Shown one piece after another: positions 5,029 through 56,191 of a DNA stretch of 64,000 bases. A model generated the notes under the pieces. It saw only the letters and a list, made by a program, of their open reading frames with translations, made no database searches and had not been told where the DNA came from. The stretch is taken from positions 17,828 to 81,827 of the IMG/VR virus record IMGVR_UViG_3300030106_006270; one strand, 5' to 3'. How positions within the stretch are numbered: position 1 is the stretch's first letter; each line of letters begins with the position of its first letter. This DNA is from a virus. The position numbers were made by a program, and so were the translations under genes.

Positions 5029-5649
5029 TTAGTTTAATATGCTCATTATCTCTCTCATCCACTTTTCAGTAGATTCTCTTTTACGAATATCTACTTCACC
5101 TTTCTTTTCTAAAGACATTCCGTGAATATGATTTTGTGGTCTGTCAGCATATTTAAATCCTTCAAATGTAAATGGTTTACCTTTAAGGCTTGAGTAGAAT
5201 TGAGCAACCTTCATTGGATTAAATTTACTCATCTTCATATCAACCTTATTTACAGGCTTACCATCATCACTTGTTTGTATAAGTCTCGTACCTTTATCAG
5301 GATTATGCAAGACTATACCCCACTGTTTATATCTATGTGCTAATTTAACCATAAACTTTTCAAAGGCTTTGGTGTCCATTAGAGAATCACCACCAGCCTT
5401 AACATTCTTAACTAATAAAGATGGCTCTTTAACAGACCTAACTACACCTGACTCATCTTCTTCTTGTCCAACACCATCTATTCTAACATAACCAAACCCT
5501 GCACTACTAATAGCACTCTTTAGTTTCGATAGATTAGCTTTGTTATCAACATCTCCAACTCTCCAAGAAGTAATGATACCAAATTCATTTTCTTGAAAGT
5601 CTCTCCAAATGCGAGATAAACTAGCTTCTAAAATTTGATGTTTGTTCAT
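5029..5649 (-). CDS. Conserved-type phage protein of unknown function with possible processed N-terminus
   Basis: 206 residues. The N-terminus MNKHQILEASLSRIWRDF carries an ILE site like those of the head-associated proteins at 13.8-17.4 kb. The body (FGIITSWRVG, LKSAISSAGFGYVRIDGVGQ, SLLVKNVKAGG, YKQWGIVLHNP, GTRLIQTSDDG) reads as one alpha/beta domain reminiscent of the DUF3293 type, but I am not certain. No catalytic motif is evident. It is followed at 10 bases by the selenoprotein gene, so the two are cotranscribed. Confidence 0.65.
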   Translation of the reverse strand: MNKHQILEASLSRIWRDFQENEFGIITSWRVGDVDNKANLSKLKSAISSAGFGYVRIDGVGQEEDESGVVRSVKEPSLLVKNVKAGGDSLMDTKAFEKFMVKLAHRYKQWGIVLHNPDKGTRLIQTSDDGKPVNKVDMKMSKFNPMKVAQFYSSLKGKPFTFEGFKYADRPQNHIHGMSLEKKGEVDIRKRESTEKWMREIMSILN

Positions 5650-5658
5650 TATTAACTC

Positions 5659-5892
5659 CTAAGTTGCTGACTCATAATATTCTATTAAATCTTCCACTTC
5701 ATTTTCATTTGGAAATCTATTCAATTGTTTTTTACTGAATATCATTCTGTTGTTAAATTTGACTTCAAATACACCGCCCATACCTTTTATGAGTTCTGCC
5801 TTAATACCAAATTGTCTTTCTATTGATTCCCTCAAACTGAGAGCCTGATTCAAGTATCCTCAGGAAGTACAATACTCAATACTAACTTTCAT
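5659..5892 (-). CDS. Putative SelW/Rdx-family selenoprotein, in-frame UGA as selenocysteine
   Basis: The frame begins at an ATG (5890-5892) behind the strong site GAGGAAGAGG, overlapping the stop of the nuclease gene. It reads MKVSIEYCTS, UGA, then GYLNQALSLRES and continues 66 residues to TAG/TAA-type termination at 5659, 77 residues in all. The UGA sits at residue 11 in a C-x-x-U position exactly where SelW, SelT and Rdx proteins carry their CxxU/CxxC redox motif. The remainder shows the family core (KGMGGVFEVKFNNRMIFSKK, then RFPNENEVEDLI). A start after the UGA would need TTG and lose the active site. TGA is used as a normal stop by many neighbours, so global recoding is unlikely. Such proteins are thioredoxin-like oxidoreductases. 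Selenocysteine use would depend on host SelA, SelB, SelC and SelD. Confidence 0.75.
5829..5862 (-). promoter_or_regulatory. Putative bacterial SECIS element with the UGA codon
   Basis: On the minus strand the UGA (5860-5862) is followed 22 bases later by an apical loop. CTCTCA pairs with TGAGGG (5829-5843) around the tri-loop GTT, whose first base is G. A lower stem TTGA/TCAA brackets it with an asymmetric internal loop. Bacterial SECIS hairpins lie immediately 3' of the UGA, with an apical G about 16-37 bases away, so position and loop fit. Confidence 0.6.
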
Positions 5893-6337
5893 CCTCTTCC
5901 TCTGCAGGTTTATCAACTAAATCTTCTTTCTTAGCTGCTTTCTCAGTTTCTATCTCAGCTACAAATTTCTTTTTCTTACCACCATCGTACTCATAGGCAT
6001 GTCCTTCATCCATTAGAATTTGATTTACACTTTTCAAACCATCTTCTGTTTCAACAAAAACCTCACCTAAAACTCTACCGAACTTTCCAGTTCCATGTGA
6101 AATAATTTTAAAAGTACCTGCTTCCAATAATTCTTTATTACGGGCTTTAGCAGCAAGTCCTTTTTTCTTTTCTTCTAAATCACGAGTTCTACTCTCCCAA
6201 GTATCAATACCCATATATCTAATTCTTTTTTTGATTTTTAAATCGAAACCTAAATCGATGTACGCATCAATTGTATCTCCATCTAAAACTTTAACTAGTG
6301 TGCCATTATATTCAAATGACGCTGGTTTCTTAGCCAC
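5882..6337 (-). CDS. Thermonuclease-like (staphylococcal nuclease, TNase) protein
   Basis: 151 residues. The SNase fold is seen in LVKVLDGDTIDAYIDLGF (residues about 14-31, with the calcium-binding Asp), IRYMGIDTWESR (catalytic Arg and Glu region), and GKFGRVLGEVFVE with the second conserved Arg. It then has VNQILMDEGHAYEYDGGKKK near the end. SNases are calcium-dependent phosphodiesterases cutting DNA and RNA to 3'-phosphates. The acidic C-terminal tail (EEEDES) is extra. There is no signal peptide, so it would act in the host cytoplasm, perhaps on host DNA or in nucleotide scavenging. Its last codons overlap the selenoprotein start. Confidence 0.9.
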   Translation of the reverse strand: MAKKPASFEYNGTLVKVLDGDTIDAYIDLGFDLKIKKRIRYMGIDTWESRTRDLEEKKKGLAAKARNKELLEAGTFKIISHGTGKFGRVLGEVFVETEDGLKSVNQILMDEGHAYEYDGGKKKKFVAEIETEKAAKKEDLVDKPAEEEDES

Positions 6338-8356: not shown

Positions 8357-10381
8357 TTATTTCTCCAAGAATTTTTTGTTCATTGTTTTAGCGATTGGAA
8401 GAACCGAAGTTACATTGACAAACTCAGAATCAGTTCCATACATTTTTGTGAAAGTTGAATTAGCTCTATCTCTATCCCAACTATCTCCGATAAAGTAACT
8501 AAGAACCTTAACACCACGATTCTTTATCTCTTTAACCATCTTAGCAGTATGATTGATTGCCGTATCATAGTTATAATCGATATCATCATTATTAAACATT
8601 GGCATCCCATCTGAAAAGTTAAGAAAGTAAGAATCCTTATCATTAGAACCCATTTCGATTTCTTTCATTACAGCCTCAAAACACAAACCCTCTGGTGTAG
8701 TGCCTGATGGGCGAAGTAGATGAAACAAGTTTCTTACTTTAGAAATTTTATCAACTCTAGAGTCATAAGCAATCAACATCAATGGATTTACTTTACTACT
8801 TCTTCTACTCATTTGAGTTGATTGAGTGCTTCTGTAAGAAATAACCAAATCAACATTGTTAATCATTGAACAGGCCTTAGCAATCGCTGTTACGGCAGTT
8901 TGAGTATTTTTCCACTTATCTCCACTCATTGAACCACTTGCATCAACAGAAATGTGAAGAAAAGCATCTGAGTAAGCTTCAACAAAAGTAGTGTTAAAAA
9001 CTCTCTCATTACCAAACCCTAACTCAGCAATTAATCTTTTGTCGATTCTACCACTATCTAATCTAGTCCACTTAGTCTCACGCGACTCACCACGCACCTG
9101 AAGTTTCTTACCTAAGATAGTTCCCATAACCAAACCCTTAGCAATACACTCTTTATTCTCATCTGAATACCAAGTGTGGCTTGGGTTTGAAATCATACTG
9201 ATTGTATCAGACTCAGCCAGAGCTTTGTTAAATTTCTTAACCATCAAAACCTTAGTAGGAGTTTTTTTACCTGTCCATCTATCAGTAACACCAGCAACAT
9301 CAACATAACTCATTCCAGCAGACTCAACAGCATCCATAGCAGCCTTATCAGTTTTGGTAAGCTTTTTCTTAGTAATATCACCATCCATAAATTTCTTCTG
9401 TTTTGAAACTGCATTTTCAAGCTGTTTCTTTTGTCTATCACTAAGTTGTGGTTTATCACCACTATCTGAATCAGAACTACTAACACTTTCACCATTATCG
9501 GAACTTTCACTACCTTCGACATTTTCATCGCCATTACCCTCTTCAGATTCTTCAGTAGGATTCACTGTTTGAACATCTAAGTTGTCCAAAAGAATACTAA
9601 AGACTTTTAGTGTAATATCAAATGCTTCCTCAGTAGAGTTCAAAGATTTGACATTACTAAAAATAAGATTTCTGATTTTTTTGAGACCAGGTAAGGAATC
9701 CAAATCTGAGTTTTTATTTGTAAGATTGATAATTCTGAAAATATATGAATCCCAATCCAAAGAAGTGTATTCATCAGATTGAAGTGCTTTATCAATAATT
9801 TTAGAATGAAAATACTTATCGTACATTGAGTGGTAGTAACCTTTGTAGCCAGGTGAATTTGAAAACACAAAGTAATCAATTCGTCTATCTTCTACATAAT
9901 TAAGTAAATCCTTCAATTTAATTTTCACATCATCTCTATCGAAACCAAAGACTTCTGCTCTGTTGAAATATTCCTGAGGAATCTCATTCTCAAGATTTCT
10001 AAGAAAATCAAAATTAGAAAGTTTGATATGAGAACCTTCATGCAATGCCAAACCAACAGTTGGGTCGAATGTTTTGTCATCTAATTTAGAAGATATTACA
10101 ACAGCTTTACCATCTGTGTAACTATCTCCACGCGAATTGAAAGTAACTTTGATATCAGACTCACCAGTAACAATTGATACGAAATTACTGATAGCCCTAC
10201 GATAAGATGCCAGTGCAACTAAATCTACACCTTTCTTAGTTTCTTCCTCATCAAAAATTGATGTCCTACTGATATCATTGTCTAACCAAAAAGACGAATA
10301 ATTACTTGTACGATTCTTAGCAGAGTATTTTTCTCTAAGAGCCATAGGGTTGAAGTTTTTAAGTGTGTTTGAATCTTTCAT
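8357..10381 (-). CDS. VWA-domain protein with HExxH motif, partner of the AAA ATPase (CobT-like)
   Basis: 674 residues. The N-terminal part has LALHEGSHIK (HEGSH at 114-118), a zinc-metallopeptidase-like signature. A long acidic Ser/Glu/Asp-rich linker spans about 275-320. The C-terminal VWA domain has an intact MIDAS motif DASGS (480-484), plus SGTTPEG and FSDGMP, which supply the remaining metal ligands. CobT-type chelatase subunits and the VWA partners of MoxR ATPases share this acidic-linker-plus-VWA plan. The HExxH suggests a peptidase or metal-binding role, which is unproven. Promoter copy 3 lies immediately upstream and AAAGGAAAT precedes the ATG. It probably acts in the host cytoplasm with the ATPase at 6743-7897. 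Confidence 0.88.
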   Translation of the reverse strand: MKDSNTLKNFNPMALREKYSAKNRTSNYSSFWLDNDISRTSIFDEEETKKGVDLVALASYRRAISNFVSIVTGESDIKVTFNSRGDSYTDGKAVVISSKLDDKTFDPTVGLALHEGSHIKLSNFDFLRNLENEIPQEYFNRAEVFGFDRDDVKIKLKDLLNYVEDRRIDYFVFSNSPGYKGYYHSMYDKYFHSKIIDKALQSDEYTSLDWDSYIFRIINLTNKNSDLDSLPGLKKIRNLIFSNVKSLNSTEEAFDITLKVFSILLDNLDVQTVNPTEESEEGNGDENVEGSESSDNGESVSSSDSDSGDKPQLSDRQKKQLENAVSKQKKFMDGDITKKKLTKTDKAAMDAVESAGMSYVDVAGVTDRWTGKKTPTKVLMVKKFNKALAESDTISMISNPSHTWYSDENKECIAKGLVMGTILGKKLQVRGESRETKWTRLDSGRIDKRLIAELGFGNERVFNTTFVEAYSDAFLHISVDASGSMSGDKWKNTQTAVTAIAKACSMINNVDLVISYRSTQSTQMSRRSSKVNPLMLIAYDSRVDKISKVRNLFHLLRPSGTTPEGLCFEAVMKEIEMGSNDKDSYFLNFSDGMPMFNNDDIDYNYDTAINHTAKMVKEIKNRGVKVLSYFIGDSWDRDRANSTFTKMYGTDSEFVNVTSVLPIAKTMNKKFLEK

Positions 10382-10568: not shown

Positions 10569-11040
10569 AACGGCTCCTAGCTTTTTTAAGTTTGGTAGAT
10601 AGTGGAAACTAAAAATTTAGGAGCCGTTATAAAAATTGAAAATCGGGGGATGTAGGATTAGCGAATACCTACAACTTCTAGCTCAGATTTTTTTTACTTT
10701 GTACCTAATACCTAAAAGTTACTTTAGTTCTCTTCAAAGTGGTTAGCTTCATTAGAGTGAGTACAACCTCTGTATTATTGCCTTATCTCTCTGAGTTTAG
10801 ATTAATTCAGCCATTAAGTGGGATTTGGTTTTATCCTACCCACAACAAAGTCAAAGAATCGTGTTCTTTAGTTATTCTAGAAGTACATTCCAAGTCGTAT
10901 GTCTACGAATCGCTTCAACCTACGATATTTAGCAGGTGGATATAGTCACCACAACTTCTTGGTAGATTCCCTTATGAGCTTCTATGTTTACTCATTATTC
11001 AGGCAATCCCATAAAGAGTTAATTACTCTCTTTACTTTCT
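10569..11040 (-). ncRNA. Putative structured non-coding RNA or regulatory region
   Basis: About 670 bases between the VWA gene and the gene ending at 11107 contain no convincing ORF on the minus strand, and the plus-strand frames there look like noise. The stretch ends (in the minus direction) with an 11-bp perfect stem, AACGGCTCCTA (10569-10579) with TAGGAGCCGTT (10618-10628), enclosing a smaller AGTTT/AAACT hairpin. A weak promoter, TTGACA (11051-11056), 16 bases, TAAAGA (11029-11034), could start a transcript near 11022. The base composition is less AT-biased than usual intergenic DNA. The boundaries are approximate and the strand is inferred from surrounding genes. Confidence 0.4.
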
Positions 11041-30221: not shown

Positions 30222-31973
30222 TTACAATAAATGTGACACCTCAATATGTTCTGCATTGAACTGTTTTTTCTTTATACCACAGCCCTCTACGAATGTCCAC
30301 TGTTTTCCACCTTTGAAAATTCTTTTATCTATAATTAAATCTATATATCTATCATTACTCACACCTATGCTCATAAGTATTAGTTTCTTCTTAAATCTGT
30401 ATATAGCTCTACTGTTTGCCACAACTCCACTGAAGTAAGTAACTCCTTCGGATTCTTCACAACCAAAGTCGTTTGATAGAAAATCAGAACCATCCCACCA
30501 ACCTGTTTTTTCAAACTGAAACATTGGTGGGCCTTGCTTTCTATTATATAAGTAATTACCGGCTAATATACTTTGTCTTCTATGCACCCATCTACGATAA
30601 GATGAGTTACAATTCTTAATAGTGGCTTTCCAAAACTTCTGTGGTTCTCTGGCTTTCCAATAAGCCAATGCCCATACTAATTGTCCATAGGATAAAGCGT
30701 GTCCTCTGCAGTAACTATACTTCGGTGAGTGTCTTAGTTCAGTAATAATATTTGATTGGTCAGCGTCTTTCTTTTTACCTTGCAATCTATTGAGAAACTC
30801 ATCCATCACATCAGGTTGTTGTTTGCTCCAACCTCTACGGTATCTATCGGCAAAATCCATAGAACATCCTAAACTATCAGAGATATATTCTATGGCATCT
30901 TCATCAGTTATTATCTGTCTCTTACCCTTACCACCACTACGGAAGTAAGCTGCTTTCCTACCACCATCGGCAGCGGCTGGTCTTATCAAAGCCAGAGCCA
31001 ACGCCACATCATACACATTCTTTGGTTGCAAAGCCAGTATAGTCTTTCTCATAGTACGGCTTTCACTTTGAGTTAAACCTATGACTTCTCCTCTGCATAG
31101 TAATTCAGAAGCTAACTTATCATCCTGCGGATACTCTGCTACAGGTTTGGAACTAAGTTGCCACAATTGAGATAATCCTCTATTACATAGTAAATCTATT
31201 TTGATTAAGTTCTGCTCCTCAACATCGTACTTGTCTAATATGATTTGCTTCCTCTGTTCTTTCAACCAAAGTTCATTCGGTACATTGTCGTTAAAAACAA
31301 TCAACCCACCACAATGTAGAGACCACTGTCGTTGCTTACCCAAAAGAGATTTCGCATAGTGTTGAACGTCTTTACGAACATAAGGGTCGGGAAAGATGTC
31401 GGAGAGTTTGTACCTTCGTGGAAGAAACTTACGATAACCAAATTTTCGAATTGCTTCCCTCATAGCAGACTTAGGCTTGTACATAACTTTATTACTTATC
31501 CTAGCAACTTTGTTAGGGTGTATCTCGTGGAACTGCTCTATCAAATCATCCCTAATAAAGTGAGGTACATCTAAGTCGATATCGGGTTGGGTATCCCTAC
31601 ACCAGTTCATAAATCTAGTTAATGGAATCTTTTCTCGGATAGGGTCGATATCACTAATTCCTAATTGATAACAGATTAACGAACTAGCCGCTGAACCTCT
31701 GAGGACATGCGGTATGTTTTGATTTTTAATCAACTGTAGTAAATCACTTACTCTGTGAAATGTAGAGACAAAACCTTTTTGCTCAATAATCTTATACTCT
31801 TTGTCTAATCTTCTGATATACTCCATACCAGTGGGATAAGGGCGTCTGAATCTTTTAATCAATGCCCCTATGGGCTGGGAATACTTTTTATCAACTAAAC
31901 CTATGTGTAAATCTGAATTACTTATATAACCTTCCATGCAGTAATAAATAGTTTCGGAAGGATGGAATATCAA
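30222..31973 (-). CDS. Minimal C-family DNA polymerase (DNA polymerase III alpha-like)
   Basis: Up to 583 residues (TTG start at 31973 or ATG at 31937). Palm motifs: VLRGSAASSLICYQLGISDI (the GRGSAAGS-type block) and PDIDLDVPH (catalytic Asp triplet PDxDxD). Fingers: ALALIRPAAADGGRKAAYF and the C-terminal SYCRGHALSYGQLVWALAYW. Host PolIIIα is about 1,160 residues. Here the PHP exonuclease, the beta-clamp-binding tail and the OB domain are absent. A motif B-like TATTTATTA lies between the two possible starts. Such stand-alone polymerases replace host enzyme in some large phages. Confidence 0.85.
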   Translation of the reverse strand: MIFHPSETIYYCMEGYISNSDLHIGLVDKKYSQPIGALIKRFRRPYPTGMEYIRRLDKEYKIIEQKGFVSTFHRVSDLLQLIKNQNIPHVLRGSAASSLICYQLGISDIDPIREKIPLTRFMNWCRDTQPDIDLDVPHFIRDDLIEQFHEIHPNKVARISNKVMYKPKSAMREAIRKFGYRKFLPRRYKLSDIFPDPYVRKDVQHYAKSLLGKQRQWSLHCGGLIVFNDNVPNELWLKEQRKQIILDKYDVEEQNLIKIDLLCNRGLSQLWQLSSKPVAEYPQDDKLASELLCRGEVIGLTQSESRTMRKTILALQPKNVYDVALALALIRPAAADGGRKAAYFRSGGKGKRQIITDEDAIEYISDSLGCSMDFADRYRRGWSKQQPDVMDEFLNRLQGKKKDADQSNIITELRHSPKYSYCRGHALSYGQLVWALAYWKAREPQKFWKATIKNCNSSYRRWVHRRQSILAGNYLYNRKQGPPMFQFEKTGWWDGSDFLSNDFGCEESEGVTYFSGVVANSRAIYRFKKKLILMSIGVSNDRYIDLIIDKRIFKGGKQWTFVEGCGIKKKQFNAEHIEVSHLL

Positions 31974-52763: not shown

Positions 52764-53125
52764 ACTATAATAAAATTTTCATATCCGATTAATTCCAACA
52801 TTTCTTTATCAACCCTACCCATAACCTCATGTTGTGGTAAGGTGTGTCTGTGACCAATAACTAAAAATGGATGTATATTATGTGGTATACACAAACTTGT
52901 CAAAGCATTTATACAATTACCAAGACCTGAGTTTTGTAGGTAAACACAACTTTTCGAACCAGCTAATTCTGCACCAACTGCGATACCAATAGCTTGCCCT
53001 TCATTAAGAGCTGGTATGTGATTGAAGCCTGAGTTTTCAATTTGTCTTATGAAAAATTTCAGTCTACTATCTGGCACACCAGTGAAAAAATCGTATCCGT
53101 CTGGTAAATCTGACATATCAAACAT
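52760..53125 (-). CDS. Phosphonopyruvate decarboxylase, Pyr subunit
   Basis: 121 residues. YDFFTGVPDSRLKFFIRQIE, HIPALNEGQAIGIAVGAELA (Glu that activates TPP in NEG) and YLQNSGLGNCINALTSL are the Pyr-domain motifs of PPD. With the PP subunit it converts phosphonopyruvate to phosphonoacetaldehyde and CO2, the step that pulls the unfavourable PEP mutase reaction forward. The start overlaps the end of the PEP mutase gene. Confidence 0.88.
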   Translation of the reverse strand: MFDMSDLPDGYDFFTGVPDSRLKFFIRQIENSGFNHIPALNEGQAIGIAVGAELAGSKSCVYLQNSGLGNCINALTSLCIPHNIHPFLVIGHRHTLPQHEVMGRVDKEMLELIGYENFIIV

Positions 53126-55487
53126 CTGGTATTAACTCCAATATGTCTTTGATTGGTAAGCACTTAGAATCACACTCATAAGACCTTTTGTTTTTTAGAA
53201 TTGTTTTAGCTGTAGAAACCATAGCTGGGTAAGAACTCCTCAGTAAATGATTAGCATAGATAACAACATCAACACCTGCCTCTATTAATTCCTGTTCTGT
53301 TATCTGGTTATAAGTAGTTGGTACAACCACCAAAGGAACTTTTTTGTCAAACTTTCTATACATTATACAGAAAGTAATTACTTCTTTTATATCTCTATCC
53401 TTACTGTGAATCATTATACCATCTGCACCATTATCTATGTAAATTCTAGCTCTGTCAAGTGCATCATTGAAACCTTTTCCTAAAATCAAACTCTCTATCC
53501 TAGCAATTATCATAAAGTCTTTTGTAACTAAAGATTTTTTACCTTCTGATATTTTTTCTGCAAAATCATCAGCTTCGTCTTGTTTTTGATTTGACGTATC
53601 TTCAAATAATGAGTTTCTTTTACTACCTATTTTATCTTCAATAATTACAGCGGACACGCCCATTCTTTCTAAAGTTCTAACTGTGTATTTAAAATGCTCA
53701 ATCATCCCACCATTGTCTAAATCCACAATCATTGGTTTGGTAGTTACATCAAATATTTCACTAAGAGTTTGACTTACTGTTGTTATATCAACGTATTGAT
53801 TATCTCTTTTTCCTTTAGATGTGGAATGTGTTAGACTACTCAACCACATAGCATCAAATTCATCGTTTCCTACTTTTGTTTTCTCTACTATCAAACCAGT
53901 TAAGCCGTTATGTGTTTCTAAAACTCTAACTATAGGTTTAACTTCTAATAACCTTAACAACATCGTTCTTCTCACATCAGGTGTAGTTCCGATTTCTTTT
54001 AAATGATTATTTATTTTTGTAGATGATATACCTTGTGTATAAGGAACATCAACAATTTCACCATCCCACTCCTTCAACTTTTCCGAAACTTTTTGTCGTA
54101 CTTGCTTTTGAACTCCTTCCAGCCAATCATCACCATGCACAACAAATTTCGGTTTGTACTTCTCCAAGTTAGGAATGTAATCTAATGTTTCTTGTGGAAC
54201 AACTGTATGAACCCCAACAATACTTTTGACTATTTCATACCTCTGATTATAAGTTAATGTAGGCAATCTTTTGTAACTTGCAATTGCAGAATCAGTTAGT
54301 AATCCTACCATAACATTACCATGCTTTTTCGCTTCCCTTATTATATTTAAATGTCCGTGATGTATTATATCAGCACACATCCCAACATAAGAAATCAATT
54401 CAGAACCATCTTCTGGCATTATACCATAATACCAGCACCAATGTCGTGAGTGCTTTAAGTGTTTTGATAAATCAGCAGCCACATTTTTTATCTTACTACC
54501 AGCTAACACATTCCTACGAACTGTGGTGTTATAACCGACATATTTTTCCTCATTTTTTGGTTTATGATAAGACAACTGAACATATAAATCATCTTCAATT
54601 CTTTTTATAGCTGAAACGGTTGTTGAGTTGTCACTATCTTCTTTACTTCTCCCATCCTCACATACATAGATTCTCTCTGTATCAACCTCATCTAAAACAT
54701 CATTTGGCAACCTTTCGTCTCTTACTCTATTCAGAATTGTATTTTTGAAGTCGCACATATAAATCAAATCTTTCTTAACAGTTTTGTTAGTTATATTATC
54801 AGTAACACTACACCAACTCAACCAAGAATCTGGCGGAGACATATGGACATCAATATGATTAGGTAGTCCGTGGTCTGAAAATAACCAAAACAAGGAATTT
54901 TCTTCGGTAAAGTCTATTTTTTTAATGATATTCTTATAACTTTCAACCCAACGCTCTCTTTCATTATCAAATTTAGCATCGTGATAATGATTATATTTCA
55001 AAAAAATAAAGTGATTCTCATCTTTGGGAAGTTCTTGCATTTTTTCAATAAAATTATACTCATCTCCCCTTTTTTTGTATTGTGGTAAGCCACCAACAAC
55101 TTTATCTTCGATGTAAGGATATATAATATAATCTCTGTTTATAGAACATATCTCATCCGGCACAAATCTGAAATTTTCATTATCACCTCTTGTAGGACCC
55201 ATAGAGTGTATGTGTATCTTCCAATCATCAGGCAGCATATTAAATATCATTTTTTTGTCTGCAATTTGCTTTTCAAACTCTCCTTTAGATTTGTAAGTAT
55301 CCTCATAAGCAATCCCCTTCATTGGATACAACTCAGAGGGTGACAAACCAGAAAACATAGAGGATAGGGTAGTAGCAGTCCAACTGTTAGTTATAAAATC
55401 AGAACAGTGTAATCCCTTTGATTTTATAATGTCTTCCATACCGACATTTTTTCTAACCATATCAAACAGTATAGCATATATCTTCAT
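53118..55487 (-). CDS. pepM: Three-domain enzyme: phosphatase/sulfatase-like, cytidylyltransferase, PEP mutase
   Basis: The start is at MKIYAILFDMVRKNVGMEDI (55487), overlapping the previous stop (TAATG), with AAGGAAAC upstream. 789 residues. Domain 1 (about 1-300): alkaline phosphatase/sulfatase superfamily pattern (ITNSWTATTLSSMFSGLSPS, then FWLFSDHGLPNH). Domain 2 (about 365-495): cytidylyltransferase, YVGMCADIIHHGHLN with HxGH at 376-379 and GISSTK near its end. Domain 3 (about 510-780): PEP mutase with EDK and NS at 617-626 (EDKIGSKRNS, the EDKX5NS signature), then ADGIMIHSKD. PEP mutase rearranges PEP to phosphonopyruvate. A fused cytidylyltransferase (as in PntC-type fusions) would make CMP-phosphonate for transfer. 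Confidence 0.93.
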   Translation of the reverse strand: MKIYAILFDMVRKNVGMEDIIKSKGLHCSDFITNSWTATTLSSMFSGLSPSELYPMKGIAYEDTYKSKGEFEKQIADKKMIFNMLPDDWKIHIHSMGPTRGDNENFRFVPDEICSINRDYIIYPYIEDKVVGGLPQYKKRGDEYNFIEKMQELPKDENHFIFLKYNHYHDAKFDNERERWVESYKNIIKKIDFTEENSLFWLFSDHGLPNHIDVHMSPPDSWLSWCSVTDNITNKTVKKDLIYMCDFKNTILNRVRDERLPNDVLDEVDTERIYVCEDGRSKEDSDNSTTVSAIKRIEDDLYVQLSYHKPKNEEKYVGYNTTVRRNVLAGSKIKNVAADLSKHLKHSRHWCWYYGIMPEDGSELISYVGMCADIIHHGHLNIIREAKKHGNVMVGLLTDSAIASYKRLPTLTYNQRYEIVKSIVGVHTVVPQETLDYIPNLEKYKPKFVVHGDDWLEGVQKQVRQKVSEKLKEWDGEIVDVPYTQGISSTKINNHLKEIGTTPDVRRTMLLRLLEVKPIVRVLETHNGLTGLIVEKTKVGNDEFDAMWLSSLTHSTSKGKRDNQYVDITTVSQTLSEIFDVTTKPMIVDLDNGGMIEHFKYTVRTLERMGVSAVIIEDKIGSKRNSLFEDTSNQKQDEADDFAEKISEGKKSLVTKDFMIIARIESLILGKGFNDALDRARIYIDNGADGIMIHSKDRDIKEVITFCIMYRKFDKKVPLVVVPTTYNQITEQELIEAGVDVVIYANHLLRSSYPAMVSTAKTILKNKRSYECDSKCLPIKDILELIPDV

Positions 55488-56191
55488 TATAGTTTCCTTA
55501 TAAAAGCCAACATAGTTGGCCATTTGTAAGTGTAACCTTTAGGATTAGTATAAGAGTCCACTCCTATTTTAGTTCTACACCACTTGACTTGACTCTTAAT
55601 GTCGGACAGTCTTTCTTTAGATATATAATTAGTTTCGGTTATAGTCTCATCGTTATTTTCCATACTATAAAGTAAATCAGTTGTCAATGTATCACCAGAT
55701 TTTATAACTTCGTAACCATATAAATGAGACCATTCACCACTACAACTATGTAAATCTTCAATCACATATAACCCACCTGACTTTACTTCATCCCATAAAT
55801 AATTCAAAGACACCTGCATTTGTTCCATAGTGTGTCCACCATCATCTATTATCATATCAAACTCACCACCATTCTCTGATATGAACCTTTTTAAATCATC
55901 GGTATTTGACTGATCTCCTTTAAACATTACAGACCTATCTAAGTAAGGATTACCCTCTTGCAATTTATTAAACTCATCAACACCATACTCAAAAATATCA
56001 TAACCATAAACAGTAGCATTTTCAAAATACTCTAACCACATTCTATGAGACCTGCCTGTTTCCACACCTATCTCAAGAACTTTACCAATATTATATCTAT
56101 CTTCCTCTAATATATCGTGATAATGTTTTGTGTAACCCAACTCTAAAGCATCGACATCATATTTTCTAGTTAAATCTTCTAATGTAGCCAT
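55487..56191 (-). CDS. Class I methyltransferase (macrocin O-methyltransferase type)
   Basis: 234 residues. GKVLEIGVETGRSHRMWLEY (SAM motif I), ATVYGYDIFEYGVDE (motif II), EFDMIIDDGGHTMEQMQVSL (D-D-G-x-H, metal and catalysis) and GGLYVIEDLHSCSG are the features of this O-methyltransferase subgroup. It would methylate a sugar hydroxyl. Confidence 0.85.
   Translation of the reverse strand: MATLEDLTRKYDVDALELGYTKHYHDILEEDRYNIGKVLEIGVETGRSHRMWLEYFENATVYGYDIFEYGVDEFNKLQEGNPYLDRSVMFKGDQSNTDDLKRFISENGGEFDMIIDDGGHTMEQMQVSLNYLWDEVKSGGLYVIEDLHSCSGEWSHLYGYEVIKSGDTLTTDLLYSMENNDETITETNYISKERLSDIKSQVKWCRTKIGVDSYTNPKGYTYKWPTMLAFIRKL

Follow-up and report, generated by a model that had tools for sequence, protein, structure and literature searches.

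The locus lies on the minus strand of a 64,000-nt stretch of viral DNA (hereafter the window), which forms part of a 95,890-base IMG/VR virus record. It carries a small gene of the SelW/Rdx type whose eleventh codon is an in-frame TGA (Table 1). When this TGA is read as selenocysteine (Sec), the gene encodes a product of 77 residues (MKVSIEYCTSUGYLNQALSLRESIERQFGIKAELIKGMGGVFEVKFNNRMIFSKKQLNRFPNENEVEDLIEYYESAT), with the CxxU motif near the N-terminus, as expected for the SelW/Rdx family. An AGGA-type Shine-Dalgarno sequence is located approximately 5 nt ahead of the ATG, and a purine-rich leader before SelW is also present in another viral locus, L003. The SelW start lies inside the 3' end of the upstream ORF, which encodes a staphylococcal-nuclease-type (SNase) domain, so that the two genes share 11 nt. 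SNase-domain homologues were likewise found upstream of SelW in L003, L004/L012, L005/L013 and L006. A first-pass annotation, made without database searches, had proposed the frame MKVSIEYCTS-UGA-GYLNQAL with the UGA occupying the U of CxxU, a strong ribosome binding site and an overlap with the upstream nuclease gene. All of these claims held; the strand, which had not been given, is minus.

Table 1. Features of the SelW locus (window coordinates)
Feature	Position	Strand	Remarks
SelW/Rdx-type gene, putative selenoprotein	5892-5659	minus	77 residues; ATG 5892-5890, TAG 5661-5659
In-frame UGA, codon 11	5860-5862	minus	U of CxxU (C8-T9-S10-U11); inferred to be read as selenocysteine
Shine-Dalgarno-like purine stretch	5893-5902	minus	5' of the SelW ATG; read directly in the sequence
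SNase-domain gene	5882-6337	minus	upstream of SelW; PF00565, E 1.1e-9
206-aa gene, phrog_30877	5029-5649	minus	downstream of SelW; unknown function
Bacterial-type SECIS hairpin, CUCUCA-GUU-UGAGGG	5843-5829	minus	6 bp, 3-nt loop; first loop base G, 22 nt past the UGA

Family membership and predicted fold

The read-through product matched the Pfam family PF10262 (Rdx) with an E-value of 4.4e-19 (68.9 bits, cut-off 22.6), and scored above the cut-offs of two NCBIfam models, TIGR02174 (CXXU_selWTH; 57.1 bits, cut-off 34.2) and NF041051 (SelTWH_Campy; 88.9 bits, cut-off 88). Solved structures matched by sequence were those of MIEN1/C17orf37, bacterial SelW-related proteins and mouse SelW. An AlphaFold2 model, predicted from an alignment with 13 relatives, reached a pLDDT of 94, and the best PDB matches of this model were SelW-family crystal structures. 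The gene product is a member of the SelW/Rdx (SelT/SelW/SelH) family, and the model predicts a thioredoxin-like fold. Membership in SelW/Rdx, as first annotated, was thereby upheld by Pfam, NCBIfam and structures alike. In a phylogeny of the 77-aa protein the viral rows did not form a single supported clade; the protein is too short, and one origin is not excluded.

TGA-bearing relatives in viral records

A protein search yielded six viral loci, each with a TGA at codon 11 and with nearly identical DNA over some 45 nt beyond it. IMG/VR was scanned with the DNA pattern I[EKQ]YCxxU-GY, and with a U-NY version of it. The GY pattern recovered the same six loci and added L022, L023, L025, L027, L028 and L030; all 13 GY-type viral records, window included, have TGA at the U position. 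When twelve records (that of the window and eleven others) were searched with a profile, each contained one full SelW copy with exactly one TGA, at U. The U-NY pattern matched 71 contigs, 68 of which carry SelW-type frames with one TGA, the remaining three being chance matches. The total thus stands at 81 viral records with a single-TGA SelW frame, that is, 80 contigs from uncultured viruses in addition to the window's, some of them near-identical. Bacterial contamination is possible among the short contigs of these 80, and viral hallmark genes were checked in few records only. Those found near SelW were a baseplate wedge gene (L094), a ribonucleotide reductase gene (L114) and a Dda-like helicase gene (L051); in L085 a DNA polymerase gene immediately adjoins SelW. 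In several records, the hallmark genes around SelW are consistent with T4-like phages, and the gene neighbourhoods vary between groups. Among annotated isolate phages (50,697 records) no SelW match was obtained with four queries.

As a separate observation, the contig of L009 carries, directly upstream of SelW, the tail of a second Rdx-type gene (L009:9246-9332, minus), cut by the contig end. A tandem SelW pair is conceivable at this locus.

Cys homologues in related phages had been named as a check by the first-pass annotation. Searches of viral contigs for Cys counterparts of the scanned motifs returned 10, 0 and 2 matches, all of them chance frames with stops, and truncated versions of these motifs were not found there either. 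As far as the scanned motifs reach, viral SelW was found in the TGA form only, without a real viral Cys version. In the Cys homologue L019, Cys occupies the U position.

These data bear on a first rival explanation, under which translation really terminates at the UGA, leaving either a gene in decay or one that encodes only a 10-residue peptide, perhaps accompanied by a TTG-started fragment downstream. In its favor, translation table 11 lists at this locus only a TTG-started ORF of 64 aa (5853-5659), which begins past the UGA. Against it, the same TGA is present in dozens of diverged viral copies in which the downstream protein is conserved. Conservation also extends to the start, to the CxxU motif that leads up to and includes the UGA, and to the hairpin that follows. 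We consider this explanation extremely improbable.

A hairpin downstream of the UGA

Published rules for bacterial SECIS elements demand a loop of 3-9 nt, a stem of 4-16 bp, a G within the first two loop bases and a distance of 16-37 nt from the UGA (PMC13188914, Fig. 2), together with a minimum free energy of -7.5 kcal/mol or lower (PMC13188914). The SelW hairpin (6 bp, 3-nt loop, G first, 22 nt) satisfies the rules for loop, stem, G and spacing. Its energy is borderline with respect to the fifth rule, amounting to -6.4 kcal/mol over the 45 nt past the UGA and to -10.6 kcal/mol when the UGA region is included. Single-sequence folding of the window sequence alone did not reveal unusual stability relative to shuffles (z -0.5 to +0.4). 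Since the single-sequence energy is not significant, the case for the hairpin rests on comparative evidence, chiefly covariation, and this evidence is strong.

In ten distinct viral sequences, all 60 pair cells form, compensatory double changes occur in four of the six pairs, and the covariation score was unmatched by any of 500 shuffles. When 52 distinct viral sequences were analyzed, 94.9% of 312 cells were paired, compared with 63.8% in shuffled and 33-56% in slid controls. Doubly changed, compensatory cells numbered 92, as against 36.9 in the shuffles. The two controls have different weaknesses: shuffling ignores relatedness, while sliding preserves relatedness but favors a structure derived from the same sequences. 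At least one of the six stem pairs is broken in 10 of the 52 sequences (the chance frame L104 was left out). Of the 12 GY-type loci examined, 11 have a fully paired stem, 6 bp or longer, placed exactly at +22. On the coding strand of the window's record, only 4 of the 2581 TGA triplets show this geometry, and placement of the hairpin by chance is therefore unlikely. Within the close clade, 8 of the 9 conserved residues of the stem zone are encoded by one and the same codon throughout, as against 14 of 36 elsewhere (Fisher p = 0.0098). The stem codons are constrained at synonymous sites.

A second rival holds that the UGA specifies a standard amino acid, either Trp or one inserted by near-cognate decoding, or that the code is reassigned. 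Conserved UGAs are indeed read through in other viruses. However, TGA is one of three ordinary stops in this record: the 106 ORFs with 100 aa or more in a non-overlapping set, all on one strand, end with TAA in 52 cases, TGA in 29 and TAG in 25. The only tRNAs found in the record are Cys(GCA) and Gly(TCC), with none for UGA. Moreover, Cys homologues have Cys at this position and the known family has Sec, and the rival leaves the covarying hairpin at SECIS distance unexplained. We regard it as highly improbable.

With respect to the selenoprotein reading, the first-pass annotation had placed a hairpin with G at the loop start 22 bases past the UGA, had stated that it fits bacterial SECIS rules and had described TGA as an ordinary stop elsewhere. 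Position, geometry and the use of TGA held, as did the rules apart from the borderline energy. The observations it had named as refuting, homologues with a true stop or lack of a SECIS fold, were sought but did not turn up. Its interpretation as a phage SelW selenoprotein was supported by every check run.

Carrier phage, decoding and known selenoproteins

The record encodes a T4-type baseplate wedge protein, a gp43-like DNA polymerase, a clamp loader and a DnaB-type helicase, as well as a class II (B12-dependent) ribonucleotide reductase. It is a fragment of a T4-like myovirus, a virus of bacteria. A marine origin is inferred from the nearest relatives rather than from sample data. The DNA polymerase did not reveal the host, its nearest counterpart among annotated phages, in Microcystis phage Mel-JY01, being 47% identical. 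A tmRNA outside the window (L014:14431-14840, G000:C1:14431-14840, minus; RF00023, 104.8 bits; predicted tag EYDYSPMVASNQDQPTYAYAA) had no blastn match among annotated phages and hence did not reveal the host either. PADLOC returned nothing for SelW. In a search of the record for further UGA-split genes, the top candidates were nearly all antisense shadow frames; this test is insensitive to short genes such as SelW.

Several other features of the window were recorded. A manA RNA motif (10647-10844, minus; RF01745, 66.9 bits) lies upstream of a cobalamin-biosynthesis-like gene (8357-10381). An 801-aa protein (53118-55523, minus) combines a cytidylyltransferase-like domain with a PEP phosphomutase domain, a fusion that may point to phosphonate metabolism in the phage. 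A 583-aa protein (30222-31973, minus) matches bacterial DNA polymerase III alpha domains and coexists with the gp43-type polymerase in the same phage.

In named cellular genomes, the TGA form of SelW goes together with the Sec machinery. TGA is the codon at this site in two Tissierella genomes and in a Deltaproteobacterial MAG, all three of which have SelB, SelA and tRNA-Sec over the cut-offs. Alicyclobacillus, with TGC at the site, has neither SelB nor tRNA-Sec over threshold and no SelA match at all. This comparison, which serves as a natural control, comprises three TGA-bearing genomes and one Cys-bearing genome. In the phylum of the Deltaproteobacterial MAG, 97 of 99 family matches contain one TGA. 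The first-pass annotation had also suggested scanning for sel genes: the viral records tested contained no match to SelB or SelA and no tRNA-Sec above the cut-off, although these records may be fragments. The sub-threshold tRNA-Sec matches in the window's record are its tRNA-Cys and tRNA-Gly genes. Since these records yielded no SelB, SelA or over-threshold tRNA-Sec, decoding is presumably carried out by the host machinery. Host dependence is the most economical reading and, like the Sec-competent host implied from the outset, it stays inferred; the host has not been identified and the viral records are possibly incomplete.

A third rival accepts the selenoprotein, but assumes that the phage supplies its own Sec-decoding genes and so decides on decoding itself. 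In support, one paper (PMC10747093) claims that three huge wastewater phages carry tRNA-Sec genes. The absence of SelB and SelA matches and of an over-cut-off tRNA-Sec speaks against it, incompletely, the records being fragments, and we judge it very improbable.

At the sequence level, the gene very likely encodes a phage-borne SelW/Rdx-type selenoprotein, a CxxU oxidoreductase with the UGA decoded by the host; Sec insertion, host machinery and cellular role are inferred, and no expression or mass-spectrometry data stand behind the reading. In the proposed mechanism, host SelB with Sec-tRNA(Sec) would bind the hairpin just past the UGA during infection. Sec would be inserted at residue 11, and the product would be a thioredoxin-like protein of 77 residues whose redox site is C-x-x-U. 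Within the infected cell, the most likely role of SelW would be that of a small thiol/selenol oxidoreductase, such as one that reduces oxidized protein thiols. Class II ribonucleotide reductases need a thiol reductant. That SelW belongs to the reducing chain for the phage's own class II enzyme is possible, but this is a guess and not a result.

A bolder reading, which we hold as one joint claim to be likely, is that the marine T4-like phages infecting Sec-using bacteria together constitute a large SelW selenoprotein reservoir, in which the protein is retained as Sec and not as the scanned Cys form, in several gene neighbourhoods and in more than one SelW lineage. The phages would be tied to Sec-competent hosts since a selenol enzyme is advantageous in infection. 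If the selenoprotein reading is true, the phage hosts are predicted to have Sec machinery, which provides a handle for host assignment, and standard annotation truncates SelW genes wherever they are present in phages. Viral selenoproteins can be counted on one hand, and a phage-borne family with SECIS covariation would demonstrate that phages make use of the 21st amino acid. The approximately 50 distinct, natural, covarying short SECIS-type hairpins are material for testing SelB recognition, which can differ between species.

The SelW/Rdx protein family and the mechanism of UGA recoding are already known. A 2021 marine trace-element study (PMC9402790) states that viral sequences were absent or very scarce in the other metalloprotein and selenoprotein families it covered. 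By term searches, phages are unmentioned in prokaryotic selenoprotein reviews, a prediction-method paper and the Sargasso Sea study. The GOS study does not mention phages and uses "viral" once, in an unrelated context. The literature searched, which included no preprints and few subscription papers, did not reveal any widespread selenoprotein family carried by phages, and hence no claim of priority is made.

Phage SelW shares with bacterial SelW-like selenoproteins (Rdx, PF10262) the family profile, the CxxU motif, the UGA codon and a post-UGA hairpin with G in the loop. It differs in its occurrence in T4-like phages, within viral gene clusters and without Sec-decoding genes found in the viral records. 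The predicted fold is shared with the SelW-related proteins of PDB entries 2fa8, 2ojl, 3dex and 2p0g (query-normalised TM-score 0.83-0.89), listed as Cys forms. These are cellular proteins, whereas phage SelW is viral; in the alignment 2fa8 has Cys at the Sec position (the remaining chains were not inspected), where phage SelW has UGA. According to a 2019 review, the only proven viral selenoproteins are poxvirus glutathione peroxidases, GPX1 of molluscum contagiosum virus and GPX4 of fowlpox virus (PMC6769590). As with these enzymes, phage SelW would be a virus-encoded selenoprotein decoded by host machinery, which for the phage protein is inferred. The poxvirus enzymes, however, belong to another protein family, have eukaryotic hosts and use the eukaryotic type of SECIS, whereas SelW is found in bacteriophages, at dozens of loci.
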